Positions 38,085 through 59,468 of a stretch of 64,000 nucleotides of DNA are shown in pieces. The position numbers were made by a program, and so were the translations under genes. Position 1 is the first letter of the stretch, and each line of letters begins with the position of its first letter. Under the pieces are notes generated by a model. It saw only the letters and a list, made by a program, of their open reading frames with translations, did not search any database and was not told where the DNA came from. This DNA is from Bacteroidia bacterium (GTDB lineage: Bacteria > Bacteroidota > Bacteroidia > Cytophagales > Cyclobacteriaceae), in assembly GCA_030432655.1 (NCBI GenBank), contig JAUILA010000026.1, forward strand, positions 1 through 64,000, read 5' to 3'.

Positions 38085-38128
38085 GTGACTAATGTTACAT
38101 ATGCCGGAAACGGCATTACCTAGCTTTG
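38085..38128 (+). promoter_or_regulatory. Crp/Fnr-like operator and -7 element before the SulP gene
   Basis: The operator GTGAC-TAAT-GTTAC (38085-38098) sits within TGTGACTAATGTTACA, which is the Crp/Fnr layout TGTGA-N6-TTACA. TAGCTTTG at 38121-38128 is a perfect TAnnTTTG. The operator centre is 29.5 bp from the first T of the -7, so it would lie near -42, a class II activator position. There is no -33 TTTG. A second small palindrome, ATGCCG-GAAA-CGGCAT (38101-38116), lies between operator and -7. Confidence 0.7.
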
Positions 38129-38161
38129 CGGTGATAACTTGTAAACCTGTCAAATGAGGCA

Positions 38162-39895
38162 ATGAGCCGGATACAAAAAATTTTACCCATAGCCGAATGG
38201 CTGCCAGCCTATAAAAAAGAATACATAAATGGTGACCTGTTTGCCGGCCTGACTGTAGGTGTCATGCTGATCCCACAGGGCATGGCCTATGCAATGATCG
38301 CAGGCCTTCCTCCGGTCTACGGATTGTATGCTTCCATCGTTCCGCAGATCATATACGCCATGTTCGGCACCTCCCGTCAATTATCCGTGGCACCAGTAGC
38401 GATGGATTCATTACTGGTGGCAGCCGGCGTTTCAGTAATGGCCACTGAAGGAACGGAAGCATACATTACACTGGCTATCCTGGTTGCCTTTTTTATGGGT
38501 GCCTTTCAGCTCCTGCTGGGCATTTTCAGGCTTGGGTTCATAACGAGCCTGTTATCCAAACCAGTCATCAGCGGATTTACCAGCGCGGCCGCCCTGATCA
38601 TCGGACTTAACCAGTTAAAATACCTCATGGGTATTGAGATCGTAAAAAGCAACCGGGTGATCGATATTATCATCGACGCGGCCGGCAAGCTGCAATTCAC
38701 GCACCTGATCACTCTCGCAATCGGAATTGCCGGGATTGTGATCATTAAAGGGGCAAAGAAAATACATAAAGCTATCCCCGGCGCACTGCTCGCGGTAGCT
38801 CTCGGAACTCTGGTGGTTTATACATTCCAGCTAAATGAGGATGGGGTCAGCATTGTCCAGACTATTCCAGAAGGTCTGCCTGCGTTGCAATTACCCGATT
38901 TCTCCGCCGGAAAGATCGCTGATCTCATCCCGCTGGCACTAACCATTTCCGTAGTGGCCTTCATGGAGGCATATTCCGTCGCAAAGGCTATAGAAGCCAA
39001 AAAACGCAATTACAAAGTCAAACCCAACCAGGAACTTATTGCCCTGGGAGCCTCCAACCTGGTCGGAGCGCTGTTTCAATCCTACCCGGTCACCGGTGGA
39101 TTCTCCCGCTCTGCTGTTAATTACCAGTCAGGCGCCCATACGCCACTTGCCTCGATAATCAGTGCTGTGCTGGTCGGACTAACACTTATTTTCCTTACGC
39201 CCCTTTTCTACTTTCTGCCGACAGCAATCCTTGCCTCAGTGATTATGGTGGCAGTGTCCGGACTGATTGACTTTGGCTATGCCAGGCAGTTATGGCACGA
39301 CAGCAAAGTGGAATTTGTACTGCTCCTGGTCACGTTTCTGGTCACCCTTCATTTCAGCATGGTTCCGGGCATAGTTACCGGTATTGTGCTATCCATCCTG
39401 GTGCTGCTGTACCGGGCGGCGTATCCGCATATAGCCCGCCTGGGAAGGATCAGGGGACATCATGAATTCCGGAATGTGTCCCGGTTCAGGGACCTGGAAG
39501 AATGGGAGAATATGCTGATAATTCGGGTAGACGCACCCCTTACCTTTGTCAACGTGCAAAATTTCAAGGATTATATTGAAAACAGCATTGACAAAAGTAA
39601 AGCGCCGATCAACTATGTAGTACTGGATGCGGCACCTATCAGCTACCTGGACGCCACCGCCACACAGGGATTAAAAGACCTGCTGGAATTCCTGAGCGGC
39701 AAGGACATTCAGTTTATAATTTGCGACGTAATCGGACCAGTACGCGATACCATGCGTACCACCGGGCTGATCGATATTTTTGGGGAGGAGAATATCTACT
39801 TCAACCTTGAAGAAGCCGTCGCAAGTATTACAGGACAACCCACGACAAGTCACCATGAATACGCCCTGCAGTCTAATATTTCAGGGAAGCAATAA
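38162..39895 (+). CDS. SulP-family anion permease with STAS domain
   Basis: A 577-residue inner-membrane transporter of the SulP family (sulfate and related anions). The signature PQGMAYAMIAGLPPVYGLY lies near the N-terminus, followed by about 12 membrane segments including SYPVTGGFSRSAVN, and a cytosolic STAS domain covers about 440-565 (VVLDAAPISYLDATATQGL). Shared operators with sulfide-oxidation genes suggest that it moves sulfate, or possibly sulfite, produced or needed in that pathway; the direction of transport cannot be told. Confidence 0.9.
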   Translation: MSRIQKILPIAEWLPAYKKEYINGDLFAGLTVGVMLIPQGMAYAMIAGLPPVYGLYASIVPQIIYAMFGTSRQLSVAPVAMDSLLVAAGVSVMATEGTEAYITLAILVAFFMGAFQLLLGIFRLGFITSLLSKPVISGFTSAAALIIGLNQLKYLMGIEIVKSNRVIDIIIDAAGKLQFTHLITLAIGIAGIVIIKGAKKIHKAIPGALLAVALGTLVVYTFQLNEDGVSIVQTIPEGLPALQLPDFSAGKIADLIPLALTISVVAFMEAYSVAKAIEAKKRNYKVKPNQELIALGASNLVGALFQSYPVTGGFSRSAVNYQSGAHTPLASIISAVLVGLTLIFLTPLFYFLPTAILASVIMVAVSGLIDFGYARQLWHDSKVEFVLLLVTFLVTLHFSMVPGIVTGIVLSILVLLYRAAYPHIARLGRIRGHHEFRNVSRFRDLEEWENMLIIRVDAPLTFVNVQNFKDYIENSIDKSKAPINYVVLDAAPISYLDATATQGLKDLLEFLSGKDIQFIICDVIGPVRDTMRTTGLIDIFGEENIYFNLEEAVASITGQPTTSHHEYALQSNISGKQ

Positions 39896-39896
39896 A

Positions 39897-40991
39897 TCAA
39901 TTAGTAATAAACAGGCTGGCGATCCGGTCAGGAACATTTCCGTACCGGGTGTCGGATGAATTGGAAAGAAGAACCACCACCATTTTATAGCCAGGGTAGA
40001 CCAGGAAACTGGTGATGCCACCGACAGATCCTCCGGAATGTCCATAAGACCTGCCGGGATTCTCTGCATTGGTTGCCCAGCCGATTCCGTAATGAGTCAA
40101 CCGGCCATTCTTCAATTGCTGCGTGGTGATCAGCGTTCTGAGCGTATTCTGTGACAGAAATCCAGGGCCCATATGCGCTTCACCGAATTTAAGCAGGTCA
40201 TGCGTGGTGGAAATAAACCCGCCACCGGCCCACTTGTAACTGTTATCCACGTAGGGCGCGTTAATGATATTTTCATCCTCATCCAGTGCGTAGAAAGACG
40301 TCCGGTTGGAAATGATCCGACGATTGATATCCGCAGTGGTACTGATCATCCCAAGTGGCTCGAAAACATTCTCCTGCATATAAGTCAGAAAGTCCTGTCC
40401 GCTTGCCCCCTCTATCGCCGCGCTGAGCAAATTAAACCCATAGCTCGAATAGGAATACTCCGTTCCGGGAGCAAATAACAGGCTGTCATCCTTAAAGATT
40501 GCCAGCCCTTCACTGACGGTTTCATAATAGGCAGAACTCAGGAATTCATCGTCCCGGTAGTGCCTGATCCCGGCGATATGGCCCCCTACCTGACGTATCG
40601 TGACCGGGTACTTTTTCTGAGGGAACGCAGGAACATATGTTTGAATAAGCGCATCGATATCCAGCTTTTCCTGGTCCATGAGCAATCCGATGGCTGCCGA
40701 TGTTAAAGGCTTGGAAACACTTCCTATCCGGAAACGGGTAACCCCGCTGATGACCGGCGTTTTTTGTTCGAGGTCTCCGTAGCCAAACCCTTCCGACCAG
40801 ACAATGCGCCCGTCGATGGATACCGCTACGTCGATGCCTGGCACCTTCCCGGATTGCATCAGTGAATCAATCATCAGACGGGCTTCCCGGACTGCTTGGG
40901 TATAGTCAACATCAATTACTTCCTGTGAGAAAATTGACGTATGAACAAGCATCGGGAATACCAGAGCGGAGAATATAAGCAGGGATTTCAT
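39897..40991 (-). CDS. LACTB-like serine hydrolase (beta-lactamase class C fold)
   Basis: A 364-residue exported protein of the serine beta-lactamase/penicillin-binding fold. The nucleophile motif is Ser91-Val-Ser-Lys94, the third motif is HSGGSVGG, and the second motif is YSSYGF instead of the usual Tyr-x-Asn. The segment GHIAGIRHY and the preceding YVPAFPQKKYPVTIRQ resemble mitochondrial LACTB more than true beta-lactamases, so peptidase or esterase activity is more likely than antibiotic resistance. It sits between two sulfur genes on the opposite strand, its stop one base after the SulP gene ends, with no operator of its own. Confidence 0.85.
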   Translation of the reverse strand: MKSLLIFSALVFPMLVHTSIFSQEVIDVDYTQAVREARLMIDSLMQSGKVPGIDVAVSIDGRIVWSEGFGYGDLEQKTPVISGVTRFRIGSVSKPLTSAAIGLLMDQEKLDIDALIQTYVPAFPQKKYPVTIRQVGGHIAGIRHYRDDEFLSSAYYETVSEGLAIFKDDSLLFAPGTEYSYSSYGFNLLSAAIEGASGQDFLTYMQENVFEPLGMISTTADINRRIISNRTSFYALDEDENIINAPYVDNSYKWAGGGFISTTHDLLKFGEAHMGPGFLSQNTLRTLITTQQLKNGRLTHYGIGWATNAENPGRSYGHSGGSVGGITSFLVYPGYKMVVVLLSNSSDTRYGNVPDRIASLFITN

Positions 40992-41066
40992 AAACGACTT
41001 GAAAGATACTTATCAAATATGCTTAATTACGCCACCATTTCAAAGTGTTGTCAGTCAGCCCCAGAG

Positions 41067-41080
41067 GTAACAATTGTTAC
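41067..41080 (+). promoter_or_regulatory. Crp/Fnr-like operator before sulfide:quinone oxidoreductase
   Basis: GTAAC-AATT-GTTAC is a perfect 14-bp palindrome 54 bp upstream of the SQR start. At the distance where the other sites have a -7 element, this one has only a weak match (GAAATTCA at 41103-41110). The promoter may be poor without the activator, or may lie elsewhere. Confidence 0.65.
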
Positions 41081-41133
41081 ATTAAAATCCAGGATTTAGA
41101 GCGAAATTCATACCAATCAAACGACGGAACATT

Positions 41134-42396
41134 ATGAAATCGCATTATCAAATTCTCGTAATTGGTGGCGGAACCGGTGGTATTATGACCGCTTCCCGTA
41201 TGCTGCAACTCAATGGCGCCCTTGATATAGGCATCATTGAACCATCTGACAAACACTATTATCAGCCTGCCTGGACACTGGTAGGAGCCGGAACGTATGA
41301 CTACAAAAAAACAGAACGGCCCATGGCATCTGTAATGCCTGAAAAAGCCGACTGGATCAAAGATTATGCTACAGAGTTTGACCCTGACAATAACCGGGTA
41401 ATCACTAAAACACACGGACCGGTGACCTATGACTATCTCGTGGTCAGCCCGGGCCTGGTCATGAAACCCGAACTGATCGAAGGGCTTCCGGAGGCCATGG
41501 ACAAAGGAGTGGTGTGCAGTAATTATACGGATCCCATTCATACCTGGAAGGTTCTCAAGAATTTCAAGGGTGGAAACGCGGTATTCACCCAGCCTACCAC
41601 ACCAATCAAATGTGGTGGCGCGCCTCAAAAGATCGCCTACCTTGCGGCTGACTTCATCCGGAAACATGGCCTGGCCAAAAAATCAAATGTGATCTTTGCC
41701 ACTCCGGGAACTACAATTTTCGGGGTTCCGCAAATCAAAAAGACGCTGGACAAGGTCATTGACCGTTACGGTATGATCTTTAAGCCTTTCTATGCCCCGG
41801 TAAAAATCGATGCAGAGAAACAGATCATTACGTTTAAATACACCAAGCCGGACACCAAATCATATGATGTGGAAGCAGGCAATGTGATAGGAGAAAGGAA
41901 TACCGGTCCTCTGACCGTGGAAATGCCTTTCGACATGCTGCACCTGGCACCTCCGCAGGGACCGCCGGACTTTGTAAGCAAATCGCCCCTGGCCAACCAG
42001 GATGGCTGGCTTGATGTGGATAAGCATACCCTGCAGCACAAAAAATATCCGAATGTTTTCGGACTCGGCGATGTGGCCGGACTGCCAACTGCCAAAACCG
42101 GCGCGGCCATTCGCAAACAGGCACCCGTGGTGATTGATAACATCTTCAAACTGATGAAGGAAAATCATATTGGAAAAAAATCCTACAACGGGTATTCATC
42201 TTGTCCGCTCGTTACCGCGTATGGAAAAATGGTGCTGGCGGAATTCGACTATGACAACAACTTCACACCGGATCCGAAACTGAAGCAGATGCTGGTTTTT
42301 GATTCCTCCAAGGAACACTGGAGACTGTGGATGTTGAAAAAGTACGGACTTCCCTATCTCTACTGGAATAAAATGATGAAAGGTAAAGACGTCTGA
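41134..42396 (+). CDS. sqr: Sulfide:quinone oxidoreductase, type II (SQOR-like)
   Basis: A flavoprotein that oxidises sulfide at the membrane, passing electrons to quinone and sulfur to an acceptor such as a thiol. The FAD motif VIGGGTGGI is at residues 9-17 and GLGDVAGLPTAKTG at 310-323. The two redox cysteines are Cys160 in TPIKCGGAPQKI and Cys357 in YSSCPLVT, matching the mitochondrial/type II class. The 420 residues fit. No signal peptide; a membrane-binding C-terminus (LWMLKKYGLPYLYWNKMM) is typical. It is the entry step of the sulfur gene set here. Confidence 0.94.
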   Translation: MKSHYQILVIGGGTGGIMTASRMLQLNGALDIGIIEPSDKHYYQPAWTLVGAGTYDYKKTERPMASVMPEKADWIKDYATEFDPDNNRVITKTHGPVTYDYLVVSPGLVMKPELIEGLPEAMDKGVVCSNYTDPIHTWKVLKNFKGGNAVFTQPTTPIKCGGAPQKIAYLAADFIRKHGLAKKSNVIFATPGTTIFGVPQIKKTLDKVIDRYGMIFKPFYAPVKIDAEKQIITFKYTKPDTKSYDVEAGNVIGERNTGPLTVEMPFDMLHLAPPQGPPDFVSKSPLANQDGWLDVDKHTLQHKKYPNVFGLGDVAGLPTAKTGAAIRKQAPVVIDNIFKLMKENHIGKKSYNGYSSCPLVTAYGKMVLAEFDYDNNFTPDPKLKQMLVFDSSKEHWRLWMLKKYGLPYLYWNKMMKGKDV

Positions 42397-42452
42397 AAAA
42401 ATCCCGGGCATCTGAGTGTGTTCACGTCGTTGATTGACCGGCTTACCCTATT

Positions 42453-42496
42453 GTAACATATGTTACTGACTGGGAAAGATGCCCGGGTTACTTTTG
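42453..42496 (+). promoter_or_regulatory. Crp/Fnr-like operator and -7 element before the YeeE/YedE genes
   Basis: The operator GTAAC-ATAT-GTTAC (42453-42466) is a perfect palindrome and TACTTTTG (42489-42496) is a perfect TAnnTTTG; centre to -7 is 29.5 bp, the same as before the SulP gene. An 11-bp inverted repeat (CCCGGGCATCT at 42403-42413, AGATGCCCGGG at 42477-42487) encloses the operator and could form a hairpin in sqr read-through RNA. Confidence 0.72.
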
Positions 42497-42515
42497 CACC
42501 TGAAATTTATAACTC

Positions 42516-43091
42516 ATGAACAATCTTATAGAATTTATCAGCCAGCCATGGCCCTGGTATGTGGCAGGACCGATCATCGCGATCATCATGTTTATCCTGC
42601 TCTGGTTTGGGAAAAGCTTCGGGATATCTGCCAACCTGCGAACCATGTGCGCCATGGCCGGAGGAGGAAAATCCTGCGACTTTTTCGCTTTTGACTGGAA
42701 GTCACAGGTCTGGAACCTGGTTTTTGCAGCGGGCCTGATCCTGGGCGGTTTTATTGCCCATACGTACCTGATGCCTTCATATGACGTGCATATCTCAGAG
42801 GCGACCATCAATGAACTGAGCCAGATGGGTATTGATGATCCGGGAAAAAATATTGTACCGGAACAGATCTTCAACTGGGAGTCCCTTTTCACACTGAAAG
42901 GGTTCATTTTCATCATCGTAGGCGGGTTTCTGATCGGTTTCGGAACCCGGTACGCCGGCGGATGTACTTCCGGCCATGCCATTTCAGGACTTAGTGACCT
43001 GCAGCTTCCCTCACTCATTGCAGTGATCGGATTCTTTATTGGCGGACTGGCAATGACCTATTTTATTCTCCCACATTTATTGGCTTTATAA
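42516..43091 (+). CDS. YeeE/YedE-family sulfur transporter, N-terminal-type half
   Basis: A 191-residue inner-membrane protein with about four or five membrane spans. It contains the family cysteine motif GGCTSGHAISGLS near residues 149-161 and a second Cys-containing loop (RTMCAMAGGGKSCDFF). In characterised YeeE/TsuA, such cysteines pass thiosulfate across the membrane. Here the transporter is split: the other half is the next gene, 12 bp downstream. The two very likely form one channel for thiosulfate or another sulfane-sulfur compound. Confidence 0.9.
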   Translation: MNNLIEFISQPWPWYVAGPIIAIIMFILLWFGKSFGISANLRTMCAMAGGGKSCDFFAFDWKSQVWNLVFAAGLILGGFIAHTYLMPSYDVHISEATINELSQMGIDDPGKNIVPEQIFNWESLFTLKGFIFIIVGGFLIGFGTRYAGGCTSGHAISGLSDLQLPSLIAVIGFFIGGLAMTYFILPHLLAL

Positions 43092-43103
43092 TCCGGAATC
43101 ATC

Positions 43104-43517
43104 ATGAAATTCATAAAATATTTATTAGTAGGAACCGTATTCGGCATTACCCTGGCCAAAGCAGAAGTTATCTCCTGGTACAGGATCTATGAAATGTTCC
43201 GGTTTCAGTCTTTCCATATGTACGGGGTCATTGGTTCGGCCGTCATCCTGGGAATCATTTTTGTTCAGCTCATCAAGCGGCGTCATATGAAGTCAATTGA
43301 CGGGAACGAAATCACCATAAACCCTAAAAATGTCAGTGTGCCCCGGTACCTGATCGGCGGTATTATTTTCGGTCTGGGATGGGCCATGACCGGTGCCTGC
43401 CCGGGACCCATGTTTATTCTTATCGGAAACGGGGTTACCGTGATTATCGCCATGCTGGCATCCGCGATTGTCGGCACATATGTTTACGGTTTACTCCGGA
43501 ATAAACTGCCTCACTGA
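43104..43517 (+). CDS. YeeE/YedE-family sulfur transporter, C-terminal-type half
   Basis: A 137-residue membrane protein with four predicted spans and the motif MTGACPGPMFILIGNG, equivalent to the C-terminal Cys motif of full-length YeeE. It is encoded 12 bp after the first half and 27 bp before the porin-like gene, so all three belong to one transcript headed by the operator at 42453. Confidence 0.9.
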   Translation: MKFIKYLLVGTVFGITLAKAEVISWYRIYEMFRFQSFHMYGVIGSAVILGIIFVQLIKRRHMKSIDGNEITINPKNVSVPRYLIGGIIFGLGWAMTGACPGPMFILIGNGVTVIIAMLASAIVGTYVYGLLRNKLPH

Positions 43518-43544
43518 TCCCTTAAAGAAGAAAGGAAACGAGGA

Positions 43545-44888
43545 ATGGTAAAGAAGTTACTTTTGACAGTGCTGATGGCTGCCGCAGGTGGATCTTTTGT
43601 CTCTGCCCAGGAGCAGGAAAAGGAACCGAAAGGCAGCTTAAGCGGAGAATGGCGAACATTCTTTATGGGCACTGTCAATAAGGGAGACCTGAAGGACTTC
43701 TACGCGCTGGGTACCGGCGGACATATCGGCTATTCTTATAAATTCAGCTCAAAATGGAAGGCTGGTATCCGGCTTTACACCACCATTAATACCAACATCC
43801 AGGACCTGACCATACCGGATGAAACCACCGGACGGATTTCACGGTATGAAGTGGGCCTGTTTGATGTCATGGATGCCGGCAATAATTTCTTTGTACTGCC
43901 GGGAGAATTATTCCTGACCTATTCATCAGGAACACATTCGGTAACAGCCGGGAGAATGAAGCGCAAGTCGCCCCTGATCAACCCGGAAGACGGACGAATG
44001 ATCCCTACGTTGCTTGAGGGTATCTGGTATGATTATAAGCCATCTGATTCTTTTCGATTGCAGGTGGCGGTGCTGGATCGCATTGCGCCCAGGGGAGTAA
44101 AGAAGTTTTACGGCATCGGCGAAAGTATCGGAACCTACCCATCCGGAAGAAACAAAGATGGAATGAGCTCACAATATGCGGGAAACACGGATTCTGATTT
44201 TATTGCGCTCGCGGGACTGGACATGAAGATCACCCCCTCGCTGAAGCTTACCGCCTGGGAATATTATGTGGATAATGTATTTAATTCCACCTTCATCAGG
44301 CCTGAGCTCGCGCTTAACGACCAGGTGACCCTGGCCGCTGAATGGCTTCACCAGCGGAAAGCGGGTGACGGTGGTAACCCATTGGATTCCCTGAGCTATT
44401 TTGAGGACCGCTACGCCAATATGTACGGTGCACAAATTGCCGTGAAAACCGCGGGCAGCCGGTTCTCGCTTGGCTATGATTATATTTCTGATGATGGCAG
44501 GTTCCTGTTTCCGAGGGAATGGGGACGTGAAGGCACCTTCACTTTTCAGAAACGGGAAAGAAGTGAAGGAACACAGAAAAACCATGCCCTGGTGCTCACA
44601 GTCGATCGCAGCTTCGGGTCGGAGAATTCAGTCATAGGCACCGTACTGAGCATCGGGCATGTCTGGAAACCAGATCCGACAGATGCAGAAAGAAATAAAT
44701 ACGCCATCCCTGCCTATACCCATATAAATCTTGACTTGTCCGGATCCTTTCAAAAACTGAAGGGCTTTGAGCCTGAACTGCTGCTAACCTGGAAAATCGG
44801 TGATGATGCCGTTACCGAAAATCCGAATTTCATTCTGAACAAAGTGGATATGTTCCAGGTGAATGCGGTGATCAATTACCGGTTCTGA
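43545..44888 (+). CDS. Outer-membrane porin-like protein (OprD-like)
   Basis: A 447-residue protein with a signal peptide (MVKKLLLTVLMAAAGGSFVSA) and an alternating beta-strand pattern ending in the aromatic NAVINYRF, as expected for an outer-membrane barrel. The spacing of strands and segments such as SVTAGRMKRKSPLINPEDGRM recall OprD-type porins. A purine-rich AAAGGAAACGAGG precedes the ATG. As the third gene of the YeeE/YedE unit it could provide the outer-membrane route for the same sulfur compound. Confidence 0.78.
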   Translation: MVKKLLLTVLMAAAGGSFVSAQEQEKEPKGSLSGEWRTFFMGTVNKGDLKDFYALGTGGHIGYSYKFSSKWKAGIRLYTTINTNIQDLTIPDETTGRISRYEVGLFDVMDAGNNFFVLPGELFLTYSSGTHSVTAGRMKRKSPLINPEDGRMIPTLLEGIWYDYKPSDSFRLQVAVLDRIAPRGVKKFYGIGESIGTYPSGRNKDGMSSQYAGNTDSDFIALAGLDMKITPSLKLTAWEYYVDNVFNSTFIRPELALNDQVTLAAEWLHQRKAGDGGNPLDSLSYFEDRYANMYGAQIAVKTAGSRFSLGYDYISDDGRFLFPREWGREGTFTFQKRERSEGTQKNHALVLTVDRSFGSENSVIGTVLSIGHVWKPDPTDAERNKYAIPAYTHINLDLSGSFQKLKGFEPELLLTWKIGDDAVTENPNFILNKVDMFQVNAVINYRF

Positions 44889-44901
44889 TTACCTGCCAGG
44901 T

Positions 44902-47885: not shown

Positions 47886-47960
47886 ATGTTTCCTATACGT
47901 AGAGGTTATCAATTTGTTTCCTAAATGTATATCATATTTGGACAAAAGTCATCGGGCTAT

Positions 47961-48004
47961 GTAACATAAGTCACAGAAAAGCAGTGAGAATCCTTCTATA
48001 ATTA
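47961..48004 (+). promoter_or_regulatory. Crp/Fnr-like operator before the MBL/rhodanese gene
   Basis: TGTAACATAAGTCACA contains GTAAC-ATAA-GTCAC (47961-47974), one mismatch from palindromic and very close to TGTGA-N6-TCACA. At 29.5 bp from the centre lies TATAATTA (47997-48004), a partial -7 match that starts with TA. The site is also 82 bp upstream of the divergent padR start. Confidence 0.68.
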
Positions 48005-48030: not shown

Positions 48031-49440
48031 ATGAAAGTAGAACAAATTTACACCGGATGTCTGGCAGAAGCTGCCTACTACATCGAATCAAATGGCGAAG
48101 TGGCCATCGTGGATCCGCTGCGGGAAGTAGCTCCTTATATAGAAAAAGCACACGAAGAAGGGGCGAAGATCAAGTATGTACTGGAAACGCATTTTCATGC
48201 GGATTTTGTATCCGGGCACATTGACCTGGCTAAAAAAACCGGCGCAACCATCGTTTACGGACCTACTGCGAATCCGGAATTTGCGGCGCATATTGCAGAA
48301 GACGGAGAAATCCTCTCACTGGGCAATGTTAAAATTAAAGTATTGCACACCCCTGGTCACACCATGGAATCCTCTACCTACCTTCTGATTGATGAGGATG
48401 GTGATGAGCACGGCATCTTTACAGGCGATACGCTGTTTATCGGTGATGTCGGGCGGCCTGACCTGGCGGTAAAAACAGACCTGAGCAGGGAAGACCTTGC
48501 CAGCCACCTGTTCGATTCACTGCGTGTAAAGATCATGACCCTGCCGGATAATGTGATCGTTTACCCGGGACATGGTGCCGGTTCTGCCTGCGGTAAAAAC
48601 ATGAGTACAGAAACCACCGATACACTCGGTCACCAGAAAATGTCGAATTATGCACTGCGTGCTGATATGAGCCGGGAAGAATTTGTGAAAGAGGTGACAG
48701 AAGGACTGGTTGATCCGCCACAGTACTTCCCCAAGAACGCGGTGATGAACAAAACAGGGTATGAAAGCATTGATACCGTTCTGGAAAGAGGGGTCATTCC
48801 GCTCGACCCGAAGGAATTCAGGGATGTTGTCGAAAGAAATGAAGCACTAATCCTGGATACCCGTCCGAAGGATGAATTTGCCAAAGGGTTTATTCCCGGA
48901 TCCGTATTTATCGGAATTGATGACAAATTTGCCCCCTGGGTAGGAGCCCTTATTCTCGACCTTAATCAGCCAATTGTTTTTCTTGCCGAGGAAGGAAAGG
49001 AAGAGGAAGTAGTTACACGTCTCTCCCGTGTTGGATATGACAATGCACTCGGCTACCTGGAAGGCGGCATGGATGCCTGGGCTAAAGCCGGATTCGATAC
49101 CGATTCTATAAATGAAGTTTCCGCAGAAGAGCTTGCGGAGAAATTTGAAAAAGACCATCTGAATGTCCTGGATGTACGGAAGGAAAGTGAGTTTGAATCG
49201 CAGCACGTAAAAGGTGCGACTAATTTCCCGCTTGATTTCATCAACCGGAACATGCAGAAAATTGACAGAAATCAGACATATTATCTGCACTGCCAGGGAG
49301 GTTACCGGTCAATGATCACTTCCTCCATACTGAAAGCACGCGGATTTGAAAATATCGTGAATATTCAGGGAGGCTTCGACGCTTTAAAGGAAACGTCGCT
49401 GGCGCTTACTGAATTTCATGAGCCACAGACGATGTTGTAG
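48031..49440 (+). CDS. Metallo-beta-lactamase / double rhodanese protein (persulfide dioxygenase type)
   Basis: A 469-residue cytosolic protein like CstB and other persulfide dioxygenase-rhodanese fusions, which oxidise protein or thiol persulfide to sulfite and make thiosulfate. The MBL domain covers about 1-240 with metal ligands in THFHADF (His54, His56, Asp58), His110, Asp133 and His181. The first rhodanese-like domain (about 265-355) lacks an active Cys (FLAEEGKEEE); the second (about 370-460) has Cys421 in HCQGGYRS. It would use the sulfur made by SQR. It is a single-gene unit with its own operator and terminator. Confidence 0.93.
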   Translation: MKVEQIYTGCLAEAAYYIESNGEVAIVDPLREVAPYIEKAHEEGAKIKYVLETHFHADFVSGHIDLAKKTGATIVYGPTANPEFAAHIAEDGEILSLGNVKIKVLHTPGHTMESSTYLLIDEDGDEHGIFTGDTLFIGDVGRPDLAVKTDLSREDLASHLFDSLRVKIMTLPDNVIVYPGHGAGSACGKNMSTETTDTLGHQKMSNYALRADMSREEFVKEVTEGLVDPPQYFPKNAVMNKTGYESIDTVLERGVIPLDPKEFRDVVERNEALILDTRPKDEFAKGFIPGSVFIGIDDKFAPWVGALILDLNQPIVFLAEEGKEEEVVTRLSRVGYDNALGYLEGGMDAWAKAGFDTDSINEVSAEELAEKFEKDHLNVLDVRKESEFESQHVKGATNFPLDFINRNMQKIDRNQTYYLHCQGGYRSMITSSILKARGFENIVNIQGGFDALKETSLALTEFHEPQTML

Positions 49441-52838: not shown

Positions 52839-52845
52839 ATCCATT

Positions 52846-52873: not shown

Positions 52874-52976
52874 AAGCTATTTCCGTAAATTTTCCGTTCA
52901 GCCCGCTGACGCCCCGTTCCTGATAATAGACCCGGATGTACAACCGCATTTTCGTTTAACCTGAAAACGGGTCTTT

Positions 52977-53480: not shown

Positions 53481-54058
53481 GATTCCCAGCCGTCGTCTGC
53501 TCGTTCAAACCTTGCGCGCAGACCCTCCGGATCATGGATTTCATAGAGATCCAAAGACTGAGTGATCAGTTCGACCACACAGAAATTTGAATCATCAATG
53601 ACGTCAGGATAGTCATATCCGTTCCCGGGATTTTCGATAATGGTCCCCGGCTGCTGAAGTGTCCCGTATACTTTTTTCGATGGATAATCCACGCGACTCC
53701 AGTGGTCCCGGGCCAGTTTGTCGCGGTAGTGCAGCCTGGCCTCCGCTTTGATCACCAGCTGGGCCTTATTCTCCGGGTCAAAGAAAAGAACGGTAGCCAC
53801 AGGCTGCTGTTTTATCTGCTTCACTTTGGCTGTGCGCACATCCGTATAAAAATACAAGTGCATCGCTTCGGTTGCATGGCGAAGAACTACCTGCCTGAGC
53901 CCGGGTCCGGCGATATCAGGCGTGGCAACGGTCATCAGCCTGAAAGGATGGCCCGGGTCACCCGCAGCCTTCAATAGTTCTTCCCTGACAGTATCAAAAG
54001 CCCGAGCAAGTACTTTGTCTTGGTCTTTGTCTTTGTCTTTGTCTTTGTCTAAAAACAT
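53462..54058 (-). CDS. Pyridoxamine 5'-phosphate oxidase-like FMN-binding protein
   Basis: A 198-residue split-barrel flavoprotein. Segments typical of PNPOx-like proteins are visible (RQVVLRHATEAMHLYFYTDVR with FMN-binding Arg, AEARLHYRDKLARDHW, then a C-terminal CVVELITQSLDLYEI). The shape resembles the Alr4036-type group rather than true PdxH, so the reaction is unknown. The N-terminus is DKDKDKDKDQDK, encoded by a tandem hexamer repeat. It lies 6 bp downstream of the flavin oxidase gene, in one operon with it. Confidence 0.85.
   Translation of the reverse strand: MFLDKDKDKDKDQDKVLARAFDTVREELLKAAGDPGHPFRLMTVATPDIAGPGLRQVVLRHATEAMHLYFYTDVRTAKVKQIKQQPVATVLFFDPENKAQLVIKAEARLHYRDKLARDHWSRVDYPSKKVYGTLQQPGTIIENPGNGYDYPDVIDDSNFCVVELITQSLDLYEIHDPEGLRARFERADDGWESYWIVP
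54015..54050. repeat. Hexanucleotide tandem repeat, six units
   Basis: Six units of TTGTCT, one with a single change (TGGTCT). On the minus strand each unit adds Asp-Lys (once Asp-Gln) to the N-terminus of the FMN-binding protein. Unit gain or loss keeps the reading frame. Confidence 0.85.
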
Positions 54059-54064
54059 GGATTA

Positions 54065-55420
54065 TCAGACAGGATAAATATTCTTATCCAGATAGGCATT
54101 ACGAAACTTACCTTCCGGATCATAGTTCCGGGCCAGCGACAGAAAATCTTCATAGCGCTCGTAGCGTTCACGGAGCGCAACGGGATCAACCGAAAATAAT
54201 TTTCCCCAATGCGGTTTGACGCCATACGGCTCCAGCTCGGCCTCAATCCTGGAGATAAGTGCTTTCACTTCAGCCGGTTGTTGTTTCCAGGTATAATGAA
54301 TGGCAACAGAATCCTGCTGATAACAGGGGCTCATCCAGAATTCATCGGCCTTGATTGTCCTAATCTCTGAAATGAGCAAATGCGGATAAATCTCATCACT
54401 CATTTTTTCAATAGCAAGATACGCATCCACCGCATTCTCCCGTGGAATAAAAAATTCCGACTGAAGCTCCTCGCCTCCGCTGGGCGTGAATCCCATCTTA
54501 AAGTGAGGGAGGCGGTTCCACCAGGGTCCGGGAACTCCCATTTGTTCCGTACAGTTTTCAGCCGACAGTGCCACAATCGGATGCAGGTTCCGGTCAGCCG
54601 CCCGGGCTCCGTAATACTCATCACCCAGGTCACTGATTTCCTGGTCCATTCTCCTTTTAATCCAAACCTGCGATACTTTTTTATACCTCCAGTCGGTGAA
54701 GAGACTGACACTATATCCGGCTGACATGATCTCATCAAAATGATCAGCCATCATTTCAACAGGAAGCTCCTGAAAGATATCCTGGCGAACCTGGTAGGAT
54801 GGCTCAATGTTGAGCTTGATTTTAGTGATAATCCCAAACGCACCCAAACCAACCACAACTGCATTAAAATCCTGATGTTCCCTGTTGATAGTAACAATAT
54901 CGCCGGAAGGTGTGACCAGTTCGACAGCGGATACCGCCGTGGCAAGATTCCCGTTGCCTACCCCCGAACCATGCGTGGCCGTTGCACAGGCGCCGGTGGC
55001 CGTAATATGAGGCAGGGAAGCCAGATTATGCAAGGCAAACCCCTGCTGATCCAGCGCCTCGCAAAAATCACCATATCGTGCTCCTCCTTCAACCGTCACT
55101 GTGCGGTTCTCCTTATCCACTTCAAGCATTCTGCTTAATTTCTGAAGAGATATCTGCGTATTCGGACTGTCGGCTATGTTATTAAAGCAATGCCTGGATC
55201 CCAATGCCTTTTGCGGATCCTTCATTTTAACAAGGGCGCTGACCTCTTCCGCCGAGCCGGGCAGGTACAGATTGGGCGCCTTGTATTGGTAATTTCCCGC
55301 CCAGTTTTTCCTGATATTCTGAGTCATATTGCCGGGGTTTAATGGTGTAGCAGAATAGGGCACGAGCATGCTTCCAGCCACCATCAGCGTGGACCGCTTG
55401 ATAAATTCTTTCCTTTTCAT
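54065..55420 (-). CDS. FAD-linked oxidase, alditol/xylitol oxidase-like
   Basis: A 451-residue oxidase of the vanillyl-alcohol-oxidase fold. The FAD domain contains ALGSRHCFN, whose His77 corresponds to the covalently flavinylated His of alditol oxidase, and LPHITATGACATATHGSG. The C-terminal ALO-type domain ends in GKFRNAYLDKNI. Expected reaction: oxidation of a sugar alcohol or aldonolactone with release of hydrogen peroxide. The N-terminus (KRKEFIKRSTLMVAGSMLV) looks like an export signal but lacks a true twin arginine. The small FMN-binding protein gene follows after 6 bp. Confidence 0.88.
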   Translation of the reverse strand: MKRKEFIKRSTLMVAGSMLVPYSATPLNPGNMTQNIRKNWAGNYQYKAPNLYLPGSAEEVSALVKMKDPQKALGSRHCFNNIADSPNTQISLQKLSRMLEVDKENRTVTVEGGARYGDFCEALDQQGFALHNLASLPHITATGACATATHGSGVGNGNLATAVSAVELVTPSGDIVTINREHQDFNAVVVGLGAFGIITKIKLNIEPSYQVRQDIFQELPVEMMADHFDEIMSAGYSVSLFTDWRYKKVSQVWIKRRMDQEISDLGDEYYGARAADRNLHPIVALSAENCTEQMGVPGPWWNRLPHFKMGFTPSGGEELQSEFFIPRENAVDAYLAIEKMSDEIYPHLLISEIRTIKADEFWMSPCYQQDSVAIHYTWKQQPAEVKALISRIEAELEPYGVKPHWGKLFSVDPVALRERYERYEDFLSLARNYDPEGKFRNAYLDKNIYPV

Positions 55421-55551
55421 ATCCTCGTTGGGTTAGTGTTCAGATATGGAGCACTGACAATTTACTAAAAATCCGAAGATTACAGGTGGATTTTTTACAG
55501 TGCAGTATTTTCAGGTGTGGGTTCACTTTGCTGAAGTGCCGTGATTAAAAA

Positions 55552-55593
55552 CGCCCCGTAGTAGAGTTAGCTCTGCTCACTCTCTACGGGGCG
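55552..55593 (-). terminator. Terminator downstream of tRNA-Arg
   Basis: CGCCCCGTAG (55552-55561) and CTACGGGGCG (55584-55593) pair perfectly. On the minus strand the hairpin is followed by TTTTTAAT and begins 4 bp after the tRNA 3' end. Confidence 0.8.
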
Positions 55594-55596
55594 GAG

Positions 55597-55668
55597 TAGC
55601 CCCGACAGGAATCGAACCTGTATCTAAAGTTTAGGAAACTTCTATTCTATCCATTGAACTACGGGGCC
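55597..55668 (-). tRNA. tRNA-Arg (anticodon CCT)
   Basis: A full cloverleaf of 72 nt folds on the minus strand. Acceptor GGCCCCG pairs with CGGGGCT, the D-stem is GTTC/GAAT, the anticodon stem GAAGT/ACTTT encloses TTCCTAA with anticodon CCT (reads AGG), the variable loop is AGAT, and the T-arm is ACAGG-TTCGATT-CCTGT. CCA is not encoded. A terminator follows directly. Confidence 0.96.
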
Positions 55669-55795
55669 GTTGCGCATCAATTCCGATCGGTTTGCCGAAA
55701 CGGATTAAGCGAGTGCAAAGCTATGAAAATCCGGTTCTGAAGGCAACGATTACGGCCAATTTCACTACATTATTCAATAATTCTACTATTCTCCT

Positions 55796-56242
55796 ATGAA
55801 AAATGTGACCTTCGGTATTATCGGGCTGCTTCTGATCTGTTCATGTCAGCCATCCCAACCTGACCCGCGGCAAGCAGAGCAGGAAATCATGGAAGCTGAA
55901 GCTGCATTCAGTCAAATGGCGGAAGAAGCAGGGATTGCAGAAGCATTTCTGTCATTTGCCGCTGAAGATGCAGTACTCAACCGCAACGGACGAATAATTC
56001 GTGGTAAAGCGGCTATTGAAACATATTTTAGTGAGCAGGACCATTCTGCCTATCAATCTGTTTCCCTTTCCTGGAAACCTGATTTCGTTAGTGCAGCCTC
56101 CTCCGGCGATATTGGCTATACCTGGGGTTCTTACGACTTCACTACCATTGACACGACCGGTGCCAAATCCGTATCCAGCGGGATTTTTCACACGGTATGG
56201 CAGAAACAGTCCGACGGATCATGGAAGTATGTCTATGACTAA
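55796..56242 (+). CDS. SnoaL/DUF4440-type lipoprotein
   Basis: A 148-residue lipoprotein with lipobox ICSC (Cys17) and an NTF2-like domain: EIMEAEAAFSQMAEEAGIAE at the start, RIIRGKAAIETYF and the closing GIFHTVWQKQSDGSWKYVYD are typical of DUF4440/SnoaL-like proteins. The fold is a small-molecule-binding cone; the ligand is unknown. It precedes the rhodanese gene, which has its own operator in the gap. Confidence 0.86.
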   Translation: MKNVTFGIIGLLLICSCQPSQPDPRQAEQEIMEAEAAFSQMAEEAGIAEAFLSFAAEDAVLNRNGRIIRGKAAIETYFSEQDHSAYQSVSLSWKPDFVSAASSGDIGYTWGSYDFTTIDTTGAKSVSSGIFHTVWQKQSDGSWKYVYD

Positions 56243-56262
56243 GTCTAATTCTCTGTTGCTAT

Positions 56263-56306
56263 GTAACTAATGTTACGGAAAGCCAGCTCATAAATATTTT
56301 CATTTG
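56263..56306 (+). promoter_or_regulatory. Crp/Fnr-like operator before the rhodanese gene
   Basis: TGTAACTAATGTTACG contains GTAAC-TAAT-GTTAC (56263-56276); the arms are perfectly complementary. At 29.5 bp from the centre lies TTCATTTG (56299-56306), a one-mismatch form of TAnnTTTG. The gap before the ATG is 22 bp. Confidence 0.7.
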
Positions 56307-56328
56307 TAGCATCGCAAAATGAAATAAT

Positions 56329-56607
56329 ATGAAAATAATTGAAGATTTACTGGCCAATGGGGCCCCGGTCATTGACGTAAGAACAGAAGGGGAGTTTGTC
56401 CGCGGGCATGCCGCCGGTTCTCTGAATATACCGTTACACGAATTAAGCGGTAAGCTGGAGGAGGTGAAAGCGATGCAACAACCGCTTGTATTATGCTGCC
56501 GCACCGGAAACCGGAGCGGAACCGCCTGTTCGTATCTGAAAGACCTTGGCATAGAATGTTACAATGCCGGGAGCTGGCAGGAGGTTCAGGAAGCTTTACC
56601 GGTCTGA
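56329..56607 (+). CDS. Single-domain rhodanese
   Basis: A 92-residue cytosolic sulfurtransferase. The active Cys is in the loop CRTGNRSG; GAPVIDVRTEGEFVRGHAAGS is the N-terminal rhodanese signature. Such proteins take sulfane sulfur from thiosulfate or persulfide. It is expressed from its own operator-bearing promoter and is convergent with the aminotransferase gene, whose stop follows immediately. Confidence 0.94.
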   Translation: MKIIEDLLANGAPVIDVRTEGEFVRGHAAGSLNIPLHELSGKLEEVKAMQQPLVLCCRTGNRSGTACSYLKDLGIECYNAGSWQEVQEALPV

Positions 56608-58023
56608 TTACCTGGCAAACGATTGAAGGAATGTGAGGAAGGCATAAATATCAGCGAGGTTCGTCACCATGCCAACTGATACCCTGATAGCGCCACGCAT
56701 TGTCTGAAGGTTTTCCATCATGTCTTCCACCGTTCCATCCTTATGTGATTTAAAGTAGGAGTCCAGGTCACCGGCCTGAATATGATTATTTAATTCATCA
56801 ATCCCCGGATTACAAAAACACCCTGTCCGGATGCTGATATTTCTCTTATTGGCCTCGGGTTCCACATTCAGATATGCTTCTGTATCGCCTTCGGGGGTGA
56901 GGAAATTAAAGATGACGGTGCCTCCGCGGTCTGTCATCTCTTTCGGACCGAATATCCGGATTAATGGCGCACCATTAGCATGTTTTAATGCGTTCATTCT
57001 CTCCATGAGCAAGCGGGTCAGTAATCCGACACGTTTACTGATGGTCTCCATTCCAATTTCATCCAGCAGGTCAAAACCATACCGAAGCGCCGGAATGTCA
57101 AGGTAATTTATGGTCCCGTCTTCAAACTTTGAATGATCCTGGGCAAGAAAGAAATATTCGGTCATGGCGGAAGCCAGCGTCACCGTGCCGCCCGCAAACC
57201 ACGGTTTGAGAAGTTTTTTAAATTTATCTTTCCGGATAAGCAGTCCGCCCAATCCGGTCGGGTAACCAAACATTTTGTAGAACGACATACTTACAAAATC
57301 CGGAGTGACCTTCTTCAGATCAAGCTTACTGGTGGGCACAAAGGCAGATGCATCCATAAGAACGTCCCATCCTTCCTTTCGCGCAAGATCAACCCACGTG
57401 GGCGAATGCTTAACCCCGGAAACGTTTGATTGCGCAGGGTAAGCAAACAATTTATTTTTCTTCTCCGGGTAAGCCGCGAGGTAATGTTGTAAAGTCTTTT
57501 CGTCAAAACGTAGATCTTCTATGACCAGAGGAGAATAGGTCACCTCCGCTCCTTTGGCCCTGGCATATTCACGGATACCGTTGACTGAATTATGGTTATC
57601 AAACGGAAGCAGGAAATGCCCCTGTTCATGGAATGGATACGATTCTCCTATAATTTTCAAGGCACCTGAGGCATTGGGGGTAAAAACCAGGAAATAGTCG
57701 TCCTGTGCATTGAAAAACCTGAGGATCTGATCTCTGGTTTCATCCACGTGCTTTGTTGAAAGGGATGAAGACGGATTCATGGAGTGTGGATTGCCAAATA
57801 CATGTTTCAGCAGATTCTCTGCGTGAAGACGCACCTGGCGTTCGCTGTAAAGGTTTCCTCCGGTAAAGTCCAGGTAAACTGACCCGGTTTCATCGAGACG
57901 TTTAAATTCCTTTTGACGCAGCTCATCCAACTGGTTTGTCTCCGAAAAGGTCGGAAATTGTTGGCTGACCTCTTTTTCAAAAGAAGCTAATGTCCCGGTC
58001 ATTGGATTTAAATCAGTTTTCAT
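56608..58023 (-). CDS. Class V aminotransferase, MOCOS-like (cysteine desulfurase fold)
   Basis: A 471-residue PLP enzyme. YLDFTGGNLYSERQV, the PLP-binding Lys in SMSFYKMFGYPTG and the Cys-rich loop RTGCFCNPG resemble the N-terminal domain of molybdenum-cofactor sulfurase, where the loop Cys carries persulfide. It lacks the MOSC domain of MOCOS. I use the ATG at 58023, which overlaps the upstream rhodanese gene by 11 bp (translational coupling); a GTG at 58071 would overlap by 59 bp. Predicted job: releasing sulfur from cysteine or a related substrate for the coupled rhodanese. Confidence 0.87.
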   Translation of the reverse strand: MKTDLNPMTGTLASFEKEVSQQFPTFSETNQLDELRQKEFKRLDETGSVYLDFTGGNLYSERQVRLHAENLLKHVFGNPHSMNPSSSLSTKHVDETRDQILRFFNAQDDYFLVFTPNASGALKIIGESYPFHEQGHFLLPFDNHNSVNGIREYARAKGAEVTYSPLVIEDLRFDEKTLQHYLAAYPEKKNKLFAYPAQSNVSGVKHSPTWVDLARKEGWDVLMDASAFVPTSKLDLKKVTPDFVSMSFYKMFGYPTGLGGLLIRKDKFKKLLKPWFAGGTVTLASAMTEYFFLAQDHSKFEDGTINYLDIPALRYGFDLLDEIGMETISKRVGLLTRLLMERMNALKHANGAPLIRIFGPKEMTDRGGTVIFNFLTPEGDTEAYLNVEPEANKRNISIRTGCFCNPGIDELNNHIQAGDLDSYFKSHKDGTVEDMMENLQTMRGAIRVSVGMVTNLADIYAFLTFLQSFAR

Positions 58024-58411
58024 CCGGCCGAACTGTTTTAAAACCAGCCTGCTCCCAGGCACTGTATCCACCCTGAAGATCGTAAAGACTCACAAATCCC
58101 ATGGTGATCAGTTCCTTGCTGGCCTGCGCGCTGCGCATTCCTGACGCACAATAAATGGCCAGCGGCTTATTCTTTTCAAGTGCATTCATTCGTTCCAGAA
58201 AGTCAGGCGAATAATAGTCTATATTAATGGCATGCTCCAGCATTCCTGCAGAAGTTTCATCCTCCGTTCTGATATCAACAAGCTGCAATTCCGTGTCGGT
58301 CAGGATCTGATTCAATTCCCCTGCATCGATGAGATTAATTTCATTTGACTGCTCAGCCGGAGCAGTGCACATGGTAAATATGAGTAGTGGAAGGAGAAAA
58401 ATTCTTTTCAT
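58013..58411 (-). CDS. Rhodanese-domain lipoprotein
   Basis: A 132-residue exported rhodanese. The N-terminus (MKRIFLLPLLIFTMC) ends at a probable lipidated Cys15, although Met at -1 is unusual for a lipobox. The rhodanese domain contains QLVDIRTEDE and the active loop Cys in YCASGMRSA. It would act at a membrane surface on the periplasmic side, unlike the two cytosolic rhodaneses here. It lies 58 bp downstream of the hydroxylase gene and overlaps the aminotransferase gene by 11 bp. Confidence 0.9.
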   Translation of the reverse strand: MKRIFLLPLLIFTMCTAPAEQSNEINLIDAGELNQILTDTELQLVDIRTEDETSAGMLEHAINIDYYSPDFLERMNALEKNKPLAIYCASGMRSAQASKELITMGFVSLYDLQGGYSAWEQAGFKTVRPDEN

Positions 58412-58469
58412 AACCGGTTTACTAACATTCTAATTTGAAAAAATCCCGGCATTCACGCCGCAACGTTTA

Positions 58470-59399
58470 TTATTTGGTTTCCTGACTTATAGCAGGTATA
58501 CTCTTTTGCTTCGTCTGGTGTTTGTGTCTTTTCATTCGAAATCCGTGTGTTACCTGTCCGAAAAATCGTTTCGGAAATTTTTCCACTCCTTTAAACCCAA
58601 GCCTTATATTTCTTCCTTCAAAAGGGATGTAAGCGGTACCGAATAAATAATCCCACAAGGACAGGCTAATACCGAAATTCACACCGTAGCGATGCTCTTC
58701 GGGAATATCATAGGCATGATGCCAGATATGCATTTGCGGGTTGTTAAAGATATACTTCAGAAATCCTATGTTCCAGCGAATATTGGAATGGTTGAAATGT
58801 CCTACCGCCAGTGTAAATATATGGATGATAAAGAAATCACGGAGCCCGATTCCGATAAGCGCCAGCGGAATATATTCAATAGTGCGGTATACCACTGTTT
58901 CCATCCAGTGGTAGCGCAGATGCGCAGCAAATCCCATTTGTTCGACCGAATGATGCACCTTATGAAATTCCCATAACCAGGGAACGCGATGAAGCAAGCG
59001 GTGTGTCCACCACTGGACAAAATCCCGCACAATAAATCCCAATAATAAATGCGCCCACACGGGCCAGGACATTACTTCAAATGCCACTACATTGGTAATT
59101 CCGATACTTGCCAGCGCATCATTAAAGAACTCGACCACAATATTGGAAGCAGCATTATAAACAATCAGGGAGAATAAAAAGAAATTGAAGAACATGTAGA
59201 ACATGTCAAGCCAGAAATCCTTCCGAAACACCGGCTGGTCCTTCCTCCATGGATTGGCTATTTCAAGAATGAAGAAAAAAAGCGAAACCCCTATTAGCCA
59301 GTAGAAGTAATTGTGCCAGGAAGGATGGGTGATTTCATCCCAAAGATAGTTTGCATATCCGCTGTAGCTGTCTGTAATTACCTTCCAGATATCGGCCAT
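58470..59399 (-). CDS. Sterol desaturase / fatty acid hydroxylase family protein
   Basis: A 309-residue integral membrane di-iron protein with four or so membrane spans. The histidine boxes are HRLLH, HKVHH and, near the C-terminus, HIWHH; a further HFNH lies between. Family members hydroxylate or desaturate lipids, sterols or carotenoids using oxygen. The substrate is unknown. It is the first gene of the unit with the rhodanese lipoprotein and MOCOS-like enzyme and has the sixth Crp/Fnr-like operator upstream, which is unexpected for a lipid enzyme. Confidence 0.9.
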   Translation of the reverse strand: MADIWKVITDSYSGYANYLWDEITHPSWHNYFYWLIGVSLFFFILEIANPWRKDQPVFRKDFWLDMFYMFFNFFLFSLIVYNAASNIVVEFFNDALASIGITNVVAFEVMSWPVWAHLLLGFIVRDFVQWWTHRLLHRVPWLWEFHKVHHSVEQMGFAAHLRYHWMETVVYRTIEYIPLALIGIGLRDFFIIHIFTLAVGHFNHSNIRWNIGFLKYIFNNPQMHIWHHAYDIPEEHRYGVNFGISLSLWDYLFGTAYIPFEGRNIRLGFKGVEKFPKRFFGQVTHGFRMKRHKHQTKQKSIPAISQETK

Positions 59400-59425
59400 T
59401 TTCTATCCCCATGGTTATAGAAGCA

Positions 59426-59468
59426 CAAATTTAATCATTTTGCATGATCTGAATGTAACTCAGGTTAC
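59426..59468 (-). promoter_or_regulatory. Crp/Fnr-like operator and -7 element of the hydroxylase-rhodanese unit
   Basis: The operator GTAAC-TCAG-GTTAC (59455-59468) has perfectly complementary 5-bp arms. On the minus strand TAAATTTG (59433 to 59426) is a perfect TAnnTTTG. The distance from centre to -7 is 28.5 bp, one less than at the other sites. The -7 ends 26 bp before the ATG. Confidence 0.7.

Follow-up and report, generated by a model that had tools for sequence, protein, structure and literature searches.

A probable Crp/Fnr-type sulfur regulon in Bacteroidia: operators, promoter geometry and a candidate activator

A palindromic box, GTAAC-N4-GTTAC or, with GTGAC/GTCAC allowed, GTRAC-N4-GTYAC, precedes six sulfur transcription units in a stretch of 64,000 nucleotides from a Bacteroidia bacterium of the Cyclobacteriaceae (GenBank assembly GCA_030432655.1, contig JAUILA010000026.1, positions 1 to 64,000; the whole stretch is called the window in what follows). 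We put at about 85% the probability that the six boxes are operators of one activator of the Crp/Fnr family encoded elsewhere in the genome, the candidate being a protein of 216 residues on contig C9. We infer that a dimer of the C9 protein would bind the box directly, centred at approximately −41 in the class II style, above the −7 box TAnnTTTG, and would switch on about 12 transcription units, whose products take up, oxidize, transfer or export reduced sulfur or act in thiol redox reactions, with the C-x5-CC motif of its sensor domain responding to persulfide or polysulfide.

The operators in the window and their conservation

GTRAC-N4-GTYAC is found six times in the window, at the positions that an earlier, sequence-only reading had given, against 0.05 occurrences expected by chance and at most one among 100 shuffles. 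A search allowing one mismatch yielded 9 sites against 3.5 expected, so that the excess resides in the exact operator form. The flanked form TGTRA-N6-TYACA, which the same reading had proposed for all six, is strictly matched only at 38085 and 47961; with four of the six sites failing, it was rejected as a consensus in favour of GTAAC-N4-GTTAC, with T favoured at −1 (0.79). At all six sites the end of the operator lies 49–63 bp before the predicted start codon. The sites are listed below with their −7 boxes, the offset being counted from the first base of the operator to that of the −7 box.

38085..38098, operator GTGACTAATGTTAC, 63 bp upstream of SulP; −7 box TAGCTTTG, 6/6, offset 36
41067..41080, operator GTAACAATTGTTAC, 53 bp upstream of SQR; −7 box poor, 3/6, offset 36
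42453..42466, operator GTAACATATGTTAC, 49 bp upstream of YeeE; −7 box TACTTTTG, 6/6, offset 36
47961..47974, operator GTAACATAAGTCAC, 56 bp upstream of MBL-rhodanese; −7 box TATAATTA, 4/6, offset 36
56263..56276, operator GTAACTAATGTTAC, 52 bp upstream of rhodanese; −7 box TTCATTTG, 5/6, offset 36
59455..59468, operator GTAACTCAGGTTAC, 55 bp upstream of the minus-strand hydroxylase unit; −7 box TAAATTTG, 6/6, offset 35

The one-mismatch sites beyond these six are at 8601-8614, 44365-44378 and 60799-60812 (GTAATAAATGTTAC, GTGACGGTGGTAAC and ATGACCTGAGTCAC, respectively).

Relatives of the C9 protein were found in 176 of 295 Bacteroidia genomes (E ≤ 1e-15), and the DNA around their genes was analysed in two sets. 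The first consists of 40 loci taken from the best-ranked matches, one for each of 40 of the 176 genomes (G176, G087, G224 and the second copy in G191 were skipped), and the second of the best 80 of 584 named loci, obtained with a search pattern that demanded Val or Glu at position 181 of the protein. Two loci without the focal gene in the open reading frame (ORF) call (L107 and L167) were dropped, leaving 118 of 120; two apparently near-identical strains (L136 and L138) were counted separately. GTAAC-N4-GTTAC occurs 161 times in the 118 loci, 159 times outside called genes, although intergenic counts are approximate with the simple longest-ORF caller used. The same half-sites at other spacers from 0 to 12 occur 6 times (spacer 2), 4 times (spacer 9) or at most once, and the best of the 59 other permutations of GTAAC, written as N4 palindromes, reaches 7 outside called genes and 15 overall. 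The box thus has the features of a two-fold symmetric operator of Crp spacing, as judged from these counts (161 at spacer 4 and never more than 6 at any other).

In many loci the boxes lie between, or before, the Crp gene and genes for TauE, MBL-rhodanese, YeeE, SulP, SQR or rhodanese. A labelled gene follows 117 of the 161 sites, and one of these six strict sulfur labels 105 of them, the labels being carried by 258 of the 2169 called genes in the 120 loci (a tally of counts). Seven sites precede the Crp gene alone or together with an unlabelled gene, and a further seven have no gene within 350 bp. A sulfur gene is present within 6 kb in 23 of 26 loci with Val181 and 6 of 13 with Glu181 in the first set, and in 71 of 79 loci of the second; at least one exact box was found in the fetched DNA of 27 of 30 named genera. 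The dispersed sulfur regulon under Crp/Fnr-type control that the sequence-only reading had proposed is supported by this arrangement, with boxes conserved upstream of orthologues of the window genes in many Bacteroidia and with a Crp/Fnr gene near the conserved sites both on contig C9 and in the loci of the relatives.

The candidate regulator and its putative signal

The genome that contains the window (4.95 Mb in 50 contigs) has 13 matches to HTH_Crp_2, six of them above the cut-off. None is on the window contig; a regulator gene inside the window was accordingly rejected, as had been noted from the sequence alone. The candidate gene (contig C9, 238660-239307; L037:7661-8311) is followed by a sodium:sulfate-symporter-type gene (PF00939), a perfect box identical to the window operator at 42453 (GTAACATATGTTAC) and a second MBL-rhodanese gene. 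The protein combines a cyclic-nucleotide-binding-type sensor domain (PF00027, 44.5 bits) with a Crp helix-turn-helix (PF13545, 48.3 bits), both above cut-off, as is typical of the Crp/Fnr superfamily. Its structure model (pLDDT 88, lowest at residues 81–100) has the CRP fold, with CRPs as best matches (TM 0.76). It scores well below the equivalog cut-offs for NtcA (TIGR03697, 43.5 bits against 244.95) and CRP (50.7 bits against 266). The nearest solved sequence is PDB 3dv8 from Eubacterium rectale (E 3.3e-19), titled only a putative regulator, a Crp/Fnr protein that has cysteines at the positions of Cys85 and Cys91, but lacks the second cysteine of the pair and has Glu in the helix.

The C-x5-CC motif of the sensor domain (Cys85, Cys91 and Cys92) is found in 115 of the 118 loci, namely 104 of 105 with Val181 and 11 of 13 with Glu181, the exceptions being L098, L103 and L104. 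It is invariant in a 22-row alignment (A1) of chosen rows from which the three exceptions were left out. In the alignment with NtcA the cysteines lie in a stretch immediately ahead of the Arg-Ser (query 97-98) of the sensor domain, which probably corresponds to the phosphate-binding cassette of CRP. The genes for SQR, persulfide dioxygenase-rhodanese and sulfur transport are controlled in other bacteria by CstR, SqrR/BigR, FisR and SoxR, which belong to other protein families and are mostly repressors, whereas the C9 protein is a predicted activator of Crp/Fnr fold. CstR and SqrR/BigR sense through cysteines, and conserved cysteines, as in the class of persulfide sensors, are present here in the putative regulator of sulfide oxidation genes. 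In view of its targets and of these cysteine-based sensors, persulfide would probably be the signal perceived by C-x5-CC, and the regulator is likely to be a sulfane-sulfur-responsive activator. The wider proposal, namely that a Crp/Fnr subfamily found throughout the Bacteroidota has converted the ligand pocket of its sensor domain to a C-x5-CC persulfide switch, and that sulfide and thiosulfate oxidation are activated throughout this phylum, in the class II manner, by such a sulfane-sulfur sensor of CRP fold, is one on which we are evenly divided.

It is possible, though we consider it the lesser possibility, that regulon and regulator are correctly identified and that the signal is instead heme, oxygen, the general thiol redox state or a metal, for example Cu(I) or Zn. 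Three conserved cysteines could bind metal, and genes for OEP, HlyD-like, RND and Tll0287-like proteins, together with two HMA-like ones recognized by eye, recur as targets or neighbours. Moreover, heme binding is reported for HcpR and PgRsp, two Crp/Fnr proteins of Porphyromonas (passages of PMC6955866 among the sources). PgRsp and CrpPg of Porphyromonas were considered as possible counterparts of the C9 protein; the PgRsp passages mention no sulfur targets. Genes for sulfur oxidation and transport are, on the other hand, the most frequent targets (the 105 of 161 sites given above). That known sulfide sensors such as CstR and SqrR/BigR also act through cysteines is a further point in favour of a sulfur signal.

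A second paralogue, on contig C47, is 30% identical to the C9 protein and also carries Arg-Val in its helix (TRVVVSR); the relatives search returned two matches in this genome, the second of which is probably this protein. It is nevertheless unlikely that the C47 protein, or another member of the family, works the boxes in place of the C9 protein, because 8.5 kb of DNA surrounding its gene contains no box, the CC pair has been lost and the protein sits on a very long branch of the tree, while the remaining four Crp proteins above cut-off differ in their helix residues.

Promoter geometry and direction of control

The Bacteroidota −7 box is given as TAnnTTTG in passages of PMC7366714. It begins exactly 36 bases downstream of the first operator base, with an exact match at 60 of 123 target-oriented sites and at least 5/6 at 103 of them. 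When gene labels are ignored and only sites more than 60 bases from the ends of their loci are counted, it stands at this offset in 143 of 163 sites (18 of 22 plus 125 of 141), as compared with 27 of 980 random intergenic positions and, for the named loci, with 1–6 of 141 at the other offsets. The T of TA in the −7 box follows the centre of the operator at a distance of 29.5 bases, which places that centre at −41.5 if the T is −12, or at about −40 if −7 is taken as the middle of the 8-base box, as in the wording of PMC7366714.

The fixed spacing, when set beside NtcA of cyanobacteria, which activates from a GTAN8TAC box at about −41.5 (PMC3898017), suggests activation of class II. GTAAC-N4-GTTAC is itself a GTAN8TAC box, its position being derived here from the −7 box. 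The C9 protein and NtcA also share the Crp family and Arg-Val at the same helix positions. They differ in that NtcA senses 2-oxoglutarate and controls nitrogen genes, and its aligned stretch is without cysteines. A Crp-type protein acting as a repressor is improbable: a site near −41 could block the polymerase in some contexts, and the sulfide sensors of other families mostly repress, but the exact −7 distance at 143 of 163 sites is not something a repressor would need, and the operator lies near the place from which NtcA canonically activates (PMC3898017).

A strict composite pattern consisting of the operator, 22 bases and the −7 box was then searched in the 295 genomes, where it gave 70 sites in 50 genomes against 4 sites for its backward control. 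Of the 176 genomes in which a relative of the regulator was found, 45 contain it, against 5 of the other 119 (Fisher p 4.6e-7, uncorrected for kinship). Targets were read in 30 of the 50 genomes, with G096 and G206, two of the five without a regulator, left out. Sixteen of the 30 loci have sulfur or thioredoxin labels (SQR 1, MBL-rhodanese 4, TauE 5, two of them weak, rhodanese types 4, SulP 1, thioredoxin 1; in L203 and L213 the target is about 260 bp distant). The others include the cytochrome c gene of the window's own genome, two DsbD-like genes (one checked with Pfam), one PF03601 gene, a Pyr_redox_2 protein resembling thioredoxin reductase and, by resemblance, three OEP-like and three DUF983-like genes.

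The recognition helix and the relation to HcpR2

According to passages of Rodionov and colleagues (2005, PMC1274295), recognition-helix residue 181 is tied to the box, being Glu in CRP-like proteins and mostly Pro in HcpR2. The present family has Val there (as in TSRVVISR) in 105 loci, including the C9 protein, and Glu in 13; the second set has Val in all 79 loci with a focal gene, its search pattern having allowed Val or Glu only. The exact box is present in 79 of the 105 Val181 loci and in 1 of the 13 Glu181 loci (p 3e-6), and in the first set alone, where the search left the residue unconstrained, in 16 of 26 against 1 of 13 (p=0.002), both values being uncorrected for kinship. Residue 181 has changed at least twice on a tree of 56 proteins. 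This association, along with the Arg-Val of NtcA, ties the protein family to the box, and the residue at position 181 is likely to select the operator word.

A switch to a GTGAC box with Glu181 is only suggestive. The Glu protein of L115 is nested among Val proteins and its locus has a GTGAC-N4-GTCAC box with a perfect −7 box at offset 36; L116, also a Glu locus, has a single such box plus an exact GTAAC box; and GTAAC/GTGAC hybrids are found in the Glu loci L091 and L094, with 15 further hybrids in Val loci. Gapped-palindrome counting in the 13 Glu loci yielded no prominent separate motif.

HcpR2 of Clostridia, Thermotogales and Bacteroides resembles the C9 protein in being a Crp/Fnr protein with residue 181 changed from Glu and, in the published consensus, exactly the box GTAACnnnnGTTAC (PMC1274295, in the passages available). 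It differs in having mostly Pro181 (Ser or Gln in three species) and in controlling hcp and redox genes in response to nitrosative stress. The C9 protein has Val181, sulfur targets and three cysteines. The box could be an HcpR2 operator, with the sulfur genes drawn into a response to NO or nitrite. Two of the regulator-free genomes do have composite boxes before Hcp (L201) and before a ferredoxin-like gene whose divergent neighbour is another Crp-family gene (L204), and these fit the regulon published for HcpR2 with an identical box (PMC1274295); the composite target in a third is an unlabelled gene (L202). No Hcp (Prismane) gene was found in the window's own genome by a search whose control matched in 5 of 14 genomes, so that HcpR fails to explain the window and was rejected as the identity of the regulator. 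Of the features of HcpR2 only the box is shared, Pro181 and control of hcp being absent, and in many genera boxes are found next to genes of the C9 type and to sulfur genes; most Bacteroides HcpR2 regulons hold hcp alone in the passages of PMC1274295. The nitrosative-stress explanation is on these grounds very improbable.

Boxes elsewhere in the genome

The whole genome contains 24 GTRAC-N4-GTYAC sites (6 in the window) against 39 for the backward control, and 12 of the exact form against 18. The raw word count, being below its control, was dropped as evidence, and position and promoter spacing were used instead: the operator signal is one of position, intergenic and at fixed spacing, and not of number. 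Twelve of the 24 sites are just upstream of starts, 11 are within ORFs and one (on C13) lies across a stop codon. The six upstream sites outside the window, with target domains from profile checks, are the following.

Contig C9, before MBL-rhodanese 2; the longest ORF overlaps the box and the likely start is further down
Contig C43, before TauE/SafE
Contig C44:74280, before thioredoxin
Contig C44:91579, before DUF302
Contig C6:31575, before peroxiredoxin, divergent from a Tll0287-like gene
Contig C6:47263, before a cytochrome c with a SoxA/TsdA-type domain, divergent from a gluconate 2-dehydrogenase subunit 3-type gene

A −7 box of at least 5/6 at the right distance is present at 6 of the 18 sites outside the window, which are exactly these six, each of them on the strand of the gene that it precedes in the list. 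The other 12 score at most 4 and are, by virtue of this restriction, background. The sequence-only reading had held that a motif found equally often inside genes or before unrelated ones would count against it; the raw numbers (11 within ORFs, 12 upstream) come close to that, but among the sites outside the window the −7 box is confined to the upstream ones. The twelve upstream sites thus mark a set of sulfur and thiol-redox genes. That the six window sites arose by chance or from local composition, for which the lack of genome-wide excess (24 against 39) could be cited, is refuted by the 0.05 sites expected in the window, by the spacer and permuted-palindrome controls (at most 15 for any of the 59 against 161) and by the fixed −7 spacing, and has next to no probability.

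Several observations weigh against activation of all these units by the C9 protein. The −7 box of the SQR operator at 41067 is poor and that at 47961 middling; 26 of the 105 Val181 loci have no exact box in the fetched DNA, some of them having one-mismatch forms; 30 of the 161 sites precede unlabelled genes only; and 131 of the 176 genomes in which relatives were found contain no exact composite box. GTGAC-N4-GTCAC boxes, which Glu181 would lead one to expect, are found in 2 of 13 Glu and 4 of 105 Val loci (p=0.13, uncorrected for kinship). L098 retains an MBL-rhodanese neighbour and has lost the CC pair, the C47 paralogue could share or hold the role given to the C9 protein, and the recurrence of efflux (OEP/RND) and DUF983 genes indicates that the stimulus may not be sulfur alone.

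Genes behind the operators

The genes of the window, as identified by Pfam and NCBIfam profile searches, are listed by coordinates and strand.

38162..39895, plus, SulP-family transporter with STAS (PF00916, PF01740; TIGR00815 above cut-off)
41134..42396, plus, sulfide:quinone oxidoreductase (SQR)-like protein (Pyr_redox_2; type III SQR match below cut-off)
42516-43091 and 43104-43517, plus, two half-size YeeE/YedE proteins (Pfam Sulf_transp)
43545..44888, plus, OprD-type outer-membrane porin, final gene of the YeeE unit
48031..49440, plus, MBL-fold and double rhodanese protein (full-length relatives 3tp9, 3r2u)
56329..56607, plus, single-domain rhodanese (PF00581, 46.2 bits)
56608..58071, minus, class-V aminotransferase, cysteine desulfurase/selenocysteine lyase-like (PF00266)
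58013..58411, minus, rhodanese, a lipoprotein by eye (PF00581, 65.4 bits)
58470..59399, minus, fatty-acid-hydroxylase family membrane protein, leading its unit (PF04116)

The gene identities of the sequence-only reading are borne out by these profiles apart from a 'MOCOS-like' enzyme, for which specific support was lacking and which is a class-V aminotransferase of the cysteine-desulfurase type. The SQR and YeeE names are based on Pfam domains above cut-off (Pyr_redox_2 and Sulf_transp), the NCBIfam matches, including that of the split YeeE/YedE pair to the thiosulfate transporter TsuA, being below it. The MBL-double rhodanese protein is persulfide dioxygenase-like by its architecture, with a match to Blh below cut-off. 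The fatty-acid-hydroxylase family protein recurs in sulfur clusters (window 58470-59399; L091, L094, L116, L120, L127), where a role in sulfur metabolism is not obvious.

In the loci of relatives, boxes are also found upstream of sulfite-oxidase-type molybdoproteins with both PF00174 and PF03404 (L176:16220-17464 and L159:19305-20525), which suggests that sulfite oxidation is part of the regulon in some species. In the sulfur clusters of L173 and L196 the gene after thioredoxin (L173:14768-15424 and L196:13137-13784) encodes a methyltransferase of the TPMT family, confirmed with PF05724 in L173 alone, which possibly acts on thiols or sulfide. Outer-membrane efflux genes come after the box in the flavobacterial-type loci L178:10855-13259, L196:14236-20150, L134:11278-16997 and L080:16278-18683, with an adjoining HlyD-like gene and, in L196 and L134, an RND gene as well; the exported compound may give a clue to the signal. 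Small cysteine-rich proteins of the DUF983 type (Pfam check in L096, the others by resemblance) follow the box in L096, L140, L148, L169, L193, L212, L217 and L218, often next to the Crp gene.

Significance

Part of the present picture was known already, namely the box itself (from HcpR2), the Crp/Fnr fold and activation from such a box near −41.5 (from NtcA). Within the literature searched, what is new is a Crp/Fnr sulfur regulon of the Bacteroidota with its candidate regulator, promoter rule and conserved cysteines. No report of such a regulon was noticed among the open-licence PMC matches listed, which is weak evidence of novelty; passages of PMC11782648 name no such regulator. The analysis adds to the sequence-only reading that the box is identical with the one published for HcpR2, that the −7 box stands at a fixed distance from it, that the candidate regulator has three conserved cysteines and that the genome contains more targets.

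Heterotrophic Bacteroidota carry SQR-like and persulfide-dioxygenase-like genes, as the loci analysed here show, and no regulator of these genes was found among the open-licence PMC matches listed. A candidate regulator, an operator, a promoter geometry and about 12 targets in one genome can now be named, so that direct binding, induction and the role of the cysteines can be tested in cultured genera such as Fulvivirga, Aquimarina, Flavobacterium and Maribacter. GTAAC-N4-GTTAC also appears to be one operator word that distinct Crp/Fnr subfamilies have put to use in nitrogen control, in the response to nitrosative stress and, probably, in the control of sulfur genes.

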